Part shown: positions 983-17,799 of the stretch, one piece after another
Layout of the letters: every line of letters begins with the position of its first letter
Position numbering within the stretch: the first letter of the stretch is position 1
Assembly: GCF_029265695.1 (NCBI RefSeq)
Contig: NZ_JAJUHW010000004.1
Span: forward strand, 62,001-126,000
Direction: 5' to 3'
DNA: 64,000 nucleotides
From: Gracilinema caldarium
GTDB lineage: Bacteria > Spirochaetota > Spirochaetia > Treponematales > Breznakiellaceae
The notes under the pieces: model-generated
The model's database searches: none
Told to the model about the DNA's origin: nothing
What the model saw: the letters and a program-made list of their open reading frames with translations, nothing else
Program-made: the position numbers and the translations under genes

Positions 983-2569
983 ATGAGAGGAAGGTCCATA
1001 TTGGCGGGAGTAGTAATTGTTATTATCAATTTTTTGTCCAGCCTTCCTCTCTACGCTCAAATTGATGAGTTTCCCCTGGCACAGCAATATGTGGAAGGGG
1101 CTATAAAGGCTATTCATGAAGGCCGATGGCAGGATGCGGAAACAATCCTCGAAAGCGGATATGATTTTGCATCCGCATCTTCCGATTTATCCTATCTTAT
1201 GGCCCTTGTTCGTTTGCAGCTTGCAAGGCCCATTGGTTCGGTGCTGGAATCGATACGGCAGGCCCAAATGACTGACCGATGGCACCGATATTCGGCAGAG
1301 TCCGCTTCTTTTTTAGAGGCCCAAACACTCATTGTCCTGCGGCAATTTGATCAGACCCAACAAATACTCAAATCCCTTTCTACCTCTGCAGATGTAGTAT
1401 ATCTGCAATTAAAAATCCTCGCTTTGCGCAATGCTCAGGGTGAGTTTTCTCAGCTATTCTCAAAAGCGGTACAATTATATCCATTGGATCCACGATTTGC
1501 AGCCCTTTATTTCAGCTACATGAAAGATAAGGTTCCCTCCTCTCAGGATACAAAACTTATTCCTCTCCTTTTAAACCGCTTACCCGCCCTGCAAAAGGCA
1601 GATCCCTTATTGCCAATTTTAGCTGTTCCTTTTATTCAGGATACTGCTGAAAAGCGACGTGTCCTCGAAGCCTATCGTGCCCTTGGGAACGACATGCTTC
1701 CTGTGCTTCCTCTCGCCTTGGATCTAGGTGTTATAGATGAAAAAAATGCAATCCTAGAACTATTTCGTTATAAAACTCTTGATGCAGCGCTGGTACGGCG
1801 TGTTTGGTCCCGGTTGCGGACAAATGAGAGCCGCCAGATCTTTTCGCAGCAACTTTCAGTGTTCTCGGGGACTATGACCGAGGATTCTGACTCTGATGGC
1901 ATCCCAGAGGTAGAGGTCGGCTACAGTAATGGCAAGCTCAGCACCTATCAATATGATGCGAATCAGGATCGCATTCCTGAAATTAAAGTGTTATTTGAAC
2001 AGGGACTCCCTAAAGAAGGCCATATAGCTCCCTTTGAAGGAACCCTAGATGTCCAGGTTCTCTGGGATTCCTATCCTGTTGTGGAAAAGTTTACCACAAG
2101 AGATCTTACCTACATACCTGCGCCGTCTAGCTTTAACTATGCACCCTTTACATTAAAGGCTCTCGTTGGTTCCTATCCCGATGTATCGGTTCTTTTCCCG
2201 GAACGGGAATCCTTTGTACCTCGGCTTACAGAAAGGGCTCTCATCTCTTTTGCTGCAAAAATAATTCGGCCAGGTACAATAGCAAATGACGCGATAGAAA
2301 CGATAGAGTTGAGTAGTGGTATTCCTCTCCGTGCTGTCGAAACACGAAAAGGCCGCATTGTTTCTATACTCGAGTTCTCGCTGGGAAAGCCTATACTGCA
2401 GCGCCTCGATATGGATCTGGATGGCAGAATGGAAACGATACGGCGTTTTCCATCCACTATAGGAATTGTAGATTCACTTAATGGGCTCGATTATCGGTAT
2501 AAATTTGAGGTCATTGAAAGTGACTGGGACGGGGATGGCATTTATGAATACAAGGAACGGCTTCGATAA
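983..2569 (+). CDS. Secreted hypothetical protein with DxDxDG-type (EF-hand/thrombospondin-3-like) loops
   Basis: N-terminal signal peptide; ATG 983 preceded by AGGAG; repeated DSDSDGIPEVEV / DANQDRIPEIKV / DMDLDGRMETI / DWDGDGIYEY. Confidence 0.75.
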   Translation: MRGRSILAGVVIVIINFLSSLPLYAQIDEFPLAQQYVEGAIKAIHEGRWQDAETILESGYDFASASSDLSYLMALVRLQLARPIGSVLESIRQAQMTDRWHRYSAESASFLEAQTLIVLRQFDQTQQILKSLSTSADVVYLQLKILALRNAQGEFSQLFSKAVQLYPLDPRFAALYFSYMKDKVPSSQDTKLIPLLLNRLPALQKADPLLPILAVPFIQDTAEKRRVLEAYRALGNDMLPVLPLALDLGVIDEKNAILELFRYKTLDAALVRRVWSRLRTNESRQIFSQQLSVFSGTMTEDSDSDGIPEVEVGYSNGKLSTYQYDANQDRIPEIKVLFEQGLPKEGHIAPFEGTLDVQVLWDSYPVVEKFTTRDLTYIPAPSSFNYAPFTLKALVGSYPDVSVLFPERESFVPRLTERALISFAAKIIRPGTIANDAIETIELSSGIPLRAVETRKGRIVSILEFSLGKPILQRLDMDLDGRMETIRRFPSTIGIVDSLNGLDYRYKFEVIESDWDGDGIYEYKERLR

Positions 2570-17156: not shown

Positions 17157-17168
17157 CACAACCGTTAC

Positions 17169-17242
17169 GGGGGCGTAGCGAAGCTGGTTATCGCGCTGGC
17201 CTGTCAAGCCGGAGATCGCGGGTTCAAGCCCCGTCGCTCCCG
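17169..17242 (+). tRNA. tRNA-Asp (GTC)
   Basis: Acceptor GGGGGCG/CGCTCCC with G73; anticodon arm CTGGC-CTGTCAA-GCCGG; T-arm GCGGGTTCAAGCCCCGT; no encoded CCA. Confidence 0.95.
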
Positions 17243-17244
17243 TA

Positions 17245-17318: not shown

Positions 17319-17391
17319 CGGGCTGTAGCGCAGGGGCTAGCGCGCTTGGTTCGGGACCAAGATGTCGGCGGTTCAAATCCGCCCAGCCCGA
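17319..17391 (+). tRNA. tRNA-Pro (CGG)
   Basis: Acceptor CGGGCTG/CAGCCCG; anticodon arm CTTGG-TTCGGGA-CCAAG; T-arm GGCGGTTCAAATCCGCC; A73. Confidence 0.95.
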
Positions 17392-17405
17392 GGAATACTC
17401 AAAAG
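17374..17405 (+). repeat. tRNA-Pro 3'-end repeat, copy 1 (within and beyond the functional tRNA)
   Basis: CAAATCCGCCCAGCCCGAGGAATACTCAAAAG, 32 bp identical to 17590-17621. Confidence 0.95.
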
Positions 17406-17430
17406 ATCACCATTTCTGGTGGTCTTTTTT
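17405..17430 (+). terminator. Terminator after tRNA-Pro
   Basis: GATCACC-N6-GGTGGTC then TTTTTT. Confidence 0.75.
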
Positions 17431-17471
17431 ATTTAGCGGGCAGTGTCTTTAATAAACGTAGAGGCGAGGGC

Positions 17472-17600
17472 GGGCGGATTTGAAACGGAGCAGGCGCGCC
17501 GCGAAGGCGGCTGAAAGCGCCCAGGGATGGGCGCGGCAGCCTGCGGAGGCGGGCTGGAGTGTGGATGCAGGAAGCGTCCGCACGGAAGCCAAATCCGCCC
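17472..17600. other. Structured 129-nt segment bounded by an 11-bp perfect inverted repeat; candidate ncRNA or mini-insertion
   Basis: GGGCGGATTTG (17472-17482) pairs with CAAATCCGCCC (17590-17600); inside are GCCGC-GAAG-GCGGC, GCGCCCA-GGGA-TGGGCGC and CAGCC...GGCTG hairpins. Confidence 0.5.
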
Positions 17601-17621
17601 AGCCCGAGGAATACTCAAAAG
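17590..17621 (+). repeat. tRNA-Pro 3'-end repeat, copy 2 (no 5' half)
   Basis: 32 bp identical to 17374-17405. Confidence 0.95.
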
Positions 17622-17645
17622 CCGCATTGTTCAATGCGGCTTTTT
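17621..17645 (+). terminator. Terminator after copy 2
   Basis: GCCGCATT-GTTC-AATGCGGC then TTTTT. Confidence 0.85.
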
Positions 17646-17680
17646 CGTTTTAAGGATGAAGCGGGCGCTGCATAGCAGCG

Positions 17681-17701
17681 TCCGCCCAGCCCGAGGAATA
17701 C
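17681..17701 (+). repeat. tRNA-Pro 3'-end repeat, copy 3 (no 5' half)
   Basis: TCCGCCCAGCCCGAGGAATAC, 21 bp identical to copies 1 and 2. Confidence 0.93.
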
Positions 17702-17706
17702 GAGAA

Positions 17707-17742
17707 GGGGATGTCCAACTAGTTTAGGACATCCCCATTTTA
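17707..17742 (+). terminator. Terminator-like hairpin after copy 3
   Basis: GGGGATGTCC-N10-GGACATCCCC then ATTTTA. Confidence 0.75.
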
Positions 17743-17799
17743 TTTAACGAGCAGTGTTATCAGTGAACCCATAGGCGGAGGCGGGCTGGAGTCTACCCT

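Follow-up and report, generated by a model that had tools for sequence, protein, structure and literature searches.

What is the 129-nt segment that lies between two copies of the tRNA-Pro 3' end in Gracilinema caldarium, and what put it there? The locus falls in the window, that is, the whole 64,000-nucleotide stretch of DNA analyzed here, which comes from a draft genome of 3.04 Mb in 88 contigs; a comparison of LepA places Treponema MAGs as its closest named relatives. An earlier note on this DNA had read the segment as a structured noncoding RNA (ncRNA). We favor, with a probability of roughly 0.55, the reading that the segment (element E1) belongs to a phylum-wide family of protein-free mobile DNA cassettes of ~130 bp that insert into tRNA gene 3' ends.

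The array behind tRNA-Pro and its fold

All features of the array lie on the forward (+) strand. The host and target gene, tRNA-Pro(CGG) (17319–17391), follows a tRNA-Asp (17168–17243), and the element boundary falls within its T loop, between GGTT and CAAATCC. A terminator-like hairpin recognized from the sequence, spacer D1 (17401–17431), separates tRNA-Pro from E1 and stands in the same register as the later spacers. E1 itself (17472–17600) is intact and scores 126.5 bits with the family model R1, described below. The segment and its perfect 11-bp closing repeat are present as the earlier note had claimed, as is the tRNA-Pro T-arm sequence in the right arm of the closing stem: positions 17590–17607 equal the tRNA-Pro 3' end and, with a trailer, make up a right arm (17590–17621) in which 32 nt are identical to the tRNA locus. 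What had been overlooked is that the left arm (17472–17487) is antisense to the T arm of the same tRNA, being its reverse complement at 94% over 16 nt; the first 11 nt of this arm pair with the right arm to form stem P1.

Downstream, a terminator had been proposed after the segment and is found as D2 (17617–17646), the terminator-like hairpin of the second unit. It is followed by a second-unit remnant (17661–17701), made up of the short hairpin already reported (17661–17685) and the third tRNA-Pro 3'-end copy that it precedes (17682–17701). Beyond the terminator-like hairpin of the third unit (17707–17741) lies a fragment of a third element, GCGGAGGCGGGCTGGAGT (17775–17792), of which E1 has an identical copy at its P2/P5 junction (17543–17560). 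That 17661–17701 and 17775–17792 are remnants of two more copies had also escaped the first reading.

The terminator hairpins of successive units (17401–17431, 17617–17646 and 17707–17741) keep their position and shape while their sequences are wholly different, and the same pattern recurs in the D1 and D2 hairpins within arrays at further loci. The hairpin at 17707–17741, GGGGATGTCC-N10-GGACATCCCC followed by T-runs, has near-identical copies at ~25 sites in the genome and is multi-copy in the relative G002. It is a member of a distinct, dispersed repeat family that landed behind the tRNA-Pro array.

Folding energy and covariation, two of the checks proposed with the ncRNA claim, both came out in favor of structure. 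Under RNA parameters, the minimum free energy (MFE) of 17472–17600 is −80.3 kcal/mol, compared with −54.7 ± 3.9 for shuffled sequences (z = −6.56; 0 of 200 as good); DNA parameters give z = −5.7 against shuffles, and the opposite strand folds worse (−66.4 kcal/mol). Covarying homologues are many. In their alignment, 80.3% of pair cells are paired, as opposed to 28%–41% when the partners are slid, and 283 pair cells carry changes on both sides where shuffles give 91.7 ± 8.4. The fold conserved by covariation comprises P1, a domain P2 (GCAGGC at 17490–17495 with GCCTGC at 17539–17544) enclosing P3 (17498–17511) and P4 (17517–17534, with GGA in its loop), and P5 (GGCT...AGCC, about 17552–17589, with an inner hairpin at 17559–17583 and the loop GCAGGAAGC). 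Because both arms come from the tRNA, the covariation of P1 has in part that origin; the core helices P2 and P5 have independent support. In the homologues, P5 is broken by internal loops of the GGA/GGA and tandem GA/GA kinds.

Two of the three hairpins originally described, GCCGC-GAAG-GCGGC (17498–17511) and GCGCCCA-GGGA-TGGGCGC (17517–17534), are those of P3 and P4. The third, CAGCC-N10-GGCTG, gives way, on covariation, to P2 and P5 as the conserved pairing. The conserved fold is the MFE structure of the segment under DNA parameters, and it is the RNA parameters that yield the third-hairpin variant. Nor does the GGGA loop hold as a GNRA type, the corresponding loops in homologues being mostly CA(N)GGAT with no conserved GNRA.

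A family behind tRNA genes

When local DNA of the window was searched against 99 relatives, the element itself, and not just the tRNA, was found in many of them behind other tRNAs. For the order, the model R1, built from 35 members, matched in 262 of 394 sampled genomes, spread over 72 of 92 genera; for the phylum, it matched in 46 of 296 sampled genomes, other classes among them. The window's genome has 8 matches and genome G041 has 21, Treponema berlinense and further records matched by LepA also carry the element, and tandem arrays are present in many genomes. No family in Rfam 15 matched E1 or nine of its relatives, BLAST against phages and plasmids returned no match to the element, and of two core patterns searched in viral contigs, one had 0 matches and the other hit 2 contigs, neither of which was confirmed by R1. 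A literature search found nothing on such elements in spirochaetes; a study of integrons in Treponema (PMC3607928) leaves tRNA unmentioned. The family is real and widespread, and it appears to be undescribed.

Its members sit in a consistent place. Among 119 distinct copies, 103 have a same-strand tRNA gene just 5' of them (within 100 nt in 81), and these tRNAs represent 21 anticodons, for Pro, Met, four Ser, Leu, Ala, Gln, Val, Arg, Asp, Cys and Asn; Glu, Gly, Trp and Thr types occur outside this set, and elements from other classes likewise lie 3' of tRNAs. The remaining 16 copies are mostly at contig edges or behind the 3' fragments of tRNAs or of an apparent tmRNA. Eight tRNA-less copies were inspected, six of which follow a tRNA 3' fragment or an apparent tmRNA end (the other two are L133 and L220). 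The arms are matched to the host gene: the right arm restarts in the T loop (CRANTCC) and usually continues through to the tRNA end, and the left arm, for its part, runs antisense to its own tRNA's T stem and at times to the acceptor too. Past the conserved T loop, the mean match to the element's own tRNA is 4.3 nt for the left arm and 9.5 nt for the right, compared with 0.7 and 0.9 nt to other tRNAs.

Some copies stand at sites other than complete tRNA genes. At locus L120 (G025:C228, about 1010–1214, reverse strand), two tandem elements follow an apparent tmRNA 3' end, GGACGCGGGTTCGACTCCCGCCACCTCCA, which suggests that any T arm, beyond tRNA genes, can be a target. Elements at L177, L195, L202, L217 and L128 lie behind tRNA 3' fragments that are probably the ends of integrated islands, and at L128 a complete tRNA-Leu on the opposite strand faces the array.

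The closest described counterparts are the tRNA-linked repeats (TLRs) of Escherichia coli, among them the 178-bp tyrT repeats (Egan and Landy 1978, cited in PMC8144298). According to PMC8144298, from 2021, TLRs share a 3' end of 18–19 bp that exactly repeats the end of the tRNA or rRNA before them, and their function had yet to be found. TLRs and the spirochaete elements alike lie directly downstream of tRNA genes, occur as tandem copies and end in 18–19 nt that, starting in the T loop, repeat the 3' end of the tRNA before them; E1 is on the same strand behind its tRNA, has 3'-end identity at 17590–17607 and belongs to a family with one to several tandem copies per site. The likeness extends to the left arm. 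In the repeats of two E. coli K-12 loci, tyrTV (L267; GGGGAAGGAT / ATCCTTCCCC) and serV-argVYZQ (L282; AGGGAGGAT), the tRNA 3' end restarts in the T loop, the left arm runs antisense to the T stem, and small hairpins lie between the arms. With the left arm opposing the T stem, the ends of the E. coli TLRs form a closing stem, of which we found no mention in the passages of PMC8144298 consulted.

The core sequence, however, is unrelated, and the family in spirochaetes is much bigger and is found behind a wider range of tRNA types. We rejected the tyrT repeats as sequence homologues, since R1 scores at most 8.3 bits on them and the model of RtT RNA (RF00391), run on six spirochaete genomes, found nothing above its cut-off. 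That model, at about 130 nt, spans the whole E. coli repeat from left arm to tRNA 3' end and in this resembles the spirochaete element. RtT is a different sequence family and is classed in Rfam as a cis-regulatory RNA, whereas the pairing statistics of the spirochaete family (below) point to DNA. Judged by its sequence and layout, the spirochaete family is TLR-like in architecture and not a member of RtT.

DNA strand or RNA

RNA helices tolerate G·U but not A·C pairs, while either one counts as a mismatch in a DNA strand. Across 111 distinct copies, the core pairs hold 43 G·T and 39 A·C among 3,357, and an alignment made with MAFFT, which is not fitted to the model, holds 19 G·T and 35 A·C among 1,062. 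The tRNAs at the same loci, used as a control, have 8.7% G·U against 0.05% A·C in 2,125 pairs. Compared with this control, the parity favors a fold that is selected as single-stranded DNA over one selected as RNA. It is the strongest sign of selection or copying on a DNA strand, if an indirect one, as G·U could equally be kept down by strong selection for stability or by a constraint acting on the two strands. Folding energy was dropped as a test of DNA versus RNA, as it does not discriminate (83% of core pairs recovered with RNA parameters, 72% with DNA parameters). Tandem purine mismatches are 5'-GA-3'/5'-GA-3' in 192 of 192 cases and never the reverse; tandem GA is a stable sheared motif in DNA and RNA alike.

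The most serious rival is an RNA of the CsrA-binding type, in which a transcript reading through from the tRNA would be cut at the duplicated tRNA 3' end to release a small RNA that could, for instance, bind CsrA through the GGA of the P4 and P5 loops. GGA stands in the P4 loop of 106 of 111 copies, in the P5 loop of 86 and in both apical loops of 82, the P5 loop being mostly CAGGA(N)G, so an RNA function, possibly as a CsrA-binding RNA, could be read from the sequence. The element is always on the strand of its tRNA, some loci have gaps of 3–26 nt with no obvious terminator, and three TLRs of E. coli rRNA operons are transcribed into RNAs that bind Hfq and, via GGA, CsrA, according to PMC8144298. 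The same paper, however, predicts the 19 tRNA-operon repeats of E. coli to be without CsrA affinity. In the spirochaetes, G·U is not commoner than A·C in the helices, 22 of 111 copies have CACGA, which lacks GGA, as their P5 loop, and a terminator-like hairpin lies between tRNA and element in the window and at many loci of relatives. Moreover, the arms change from one tRNA to the next, and copies are missing from sister species or found there in decayed form, unlike a conserved regulator. We regard the small RNA as unlikely, though to be taken seriously, and a mobile DNA element as likelier than the ncRNA reading. Of the original claim of a structured ncRNA, "structured" stands on covariation and the folding z score of −6.56, and two observations, the parity of G·T and A·C and the terminator-like hairpin between tRNA and element, speak against "ncRNA".

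Insertion, decay and a possible route

The 3' junction of the element is fixed in the T loop, between GGTT and CRANTCC, and the 5' junction is variable. The direct repeats start in the T loop and stop at a variable point downstream, which in isolated copies lies 13–59 nt past the tRNA. The D1 spacer is repeated after the element as D2, over 24 nt at L139, 19 nt at L149, 45 nt at L174, 59 nt at L222 and 39 nt at L219, where the repeat includes the terminator. This duplication is visible in a subset of loci only; many have little D1/D2 similarity, for which we assume age and spacer drift. An empty site is also at hand. In the tRNA-Ser cluster of G001, a relative of the same genus, only 18 nt, TGTCCAGAAGAGGTTCCT, separate tRNA-Ser(TGA) from the next tRNA; in the window's genome (G000), tRNA-Ser(TGA) is followed by 236 nt holding the element, a second tRNA 3' end and TGTCCAGAACAGGTCCCT, and the spacer after the element matches the empty site of G001. 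Direct repeats and an empty site in a relative of the same genus therefore identify the elements as insertions. On this evidence, the T-arm identity stems not from tRNA processing but from duplication of the target's end on insertion.

G001 has intact copies at its Leu and Met loci, and G000 has 3'-truncated ones there; G003 has a truncated Met copy and a Leu copy that extends past the end of its contig. Some copies are thus shared within the genus and decayed, and by themselves do not demonstrate recent movement. The sequences indicate that elements arrive, multiply in tandem and decay, and the window's array is an example: behind the intact E1 come a remnant made up of a hairpin and a tRNA 3' end, and then an 18-nt fragment. 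Truncation recurs just after GGAGGCG (about position 76–81 of the model) at L119, L011, L030, L118 and L144, and the copies truncated there keep the left arm and P2–P4 without P5 and the right arm. A bigger autonomous element with its left end near position 77 was considered and rejected, as the four arrays searched for a remote tRNA 3'-end copy showed only the ordinary ones close by and no far right end.

Among enzymes that could move such an element, none of Phage_integrase, Y1_Tnp and RVT_1 consistently accompanies a high number of elements in a genome, each type (for tyrosine recombinases, extra ones) being missing from several element-rich genomes. One alternative is an integron-like or phage-type reaction, in which a tyrosine recombinase would join the folded element, with P1 as an attC-like paired site, to the tRNA T arm as an attI-like site, stacking cassettes. 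The layout tRNA-[spacer-element]n with its crossover in the T loop, the inverted arms that make a paired copy of the target and the Ser(TGA) spacer equal to the empty site of the sister species all fit, and like integron cassettes the element is short, would fold as single-stranded DNA, has inverted ends and is arrayed behind a fixed site. Against this, its arms are unlike integron R boxes, reading GGATTYGAACC ... CRANTCC with no attC boxes of the form RYYYAAC ... GTTRRRY (no GTT/AAC boxes); it has a multi-branched conserved core and uses a tRNA as its site; it is present in genomes without an integron integrase, such as G000 and G018, each of which has only two tyrosine recombinases, presumed to be XerC and XerD; and conservative recombination would not be expected to leave direct repeats of variable length. 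We consider this route improbable.

Target-primed reverse transcription, with the element as an RNA that uses its 3' arm for priming at a T-loop nick, would produce just the pattern of a fixed 3' junction, a variable 5' junction and variable direct repeats. RVT_1 was, however, absent in 19 of 28 genomes tested, including the copy-rich G041, G001, G018, G063, G066 and G095, and the parity of G·T and A·C speaks against an RNA intermediate, which makes this explanation highly improbable. The element also shares with REP/REPIN sequences and their RAYTs, and with IS200/IS605 ends, a small size, lack of proteins and a presumed fold as single-stranded DNA; it differs in its tRNA-end target and direct repeats, and several element-rich genomes lack a Y1 transposase (Y1_Tnp was absent in the element-bearing G000, G001, G018, G066, G206 and G183). 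We also consider highly improbable a DNA element kept for the benefit of the host, in which spare tRNA 3' ends would buffer tRNA genes against integrating islands. Each copy does add another tRNA 3' end, and arrays do occur behind tRNA 3' fragments, but such a role does not need a covarying core, and patchy presence, decay and an empty site are at odds with it.

For the mobile cassette that we favor, we tentatively propose a new class, a suggestion we hold with clearly less confidence than mobility itself: a protein-free element that would travel as a folded single DNA strand, dock on the universal T-loop sequence and rewrite its left arm for each tRNA, with the E. coli TLRs as an independent or very distant branch. 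The transferred form would be the folded + strand as single-stranded DNA, and its 5' end, GGATTYGAACC, complements the near-universal T-loop sequence and may allow docking at a wide range of tRNA genes. If the strand were joined at the T loop and the gap then filled by repair synthesis, the tRNA 3' end would be duplicated and the tRNA left intact, and copying back of the displaced strand could produce the target-specific left arm. Mobilizing enzymes could be supplied in trans, either the host's own or those of passing mobile elements. Repeated insertion at one site would then build tandem arrays that later decay, as may have happened in the window to leave one intact copy and two remnants.

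A large and diverse covarying family marked by insertion, with TLR architecture, direct repeats and an empty site, makes the TLR puzzle of 1978 testable with respect to mobility, the mover and whether DNA or RNA is involved. The count of G·U against A·C with a tRNA control may help to separate DNA from RNA folds in other families of candidate ncRNAs. If true, the reading proposed here would add a mechanism of tRNA-targeted insertion that spares tRNA function and adapts the arms of the element to its target.
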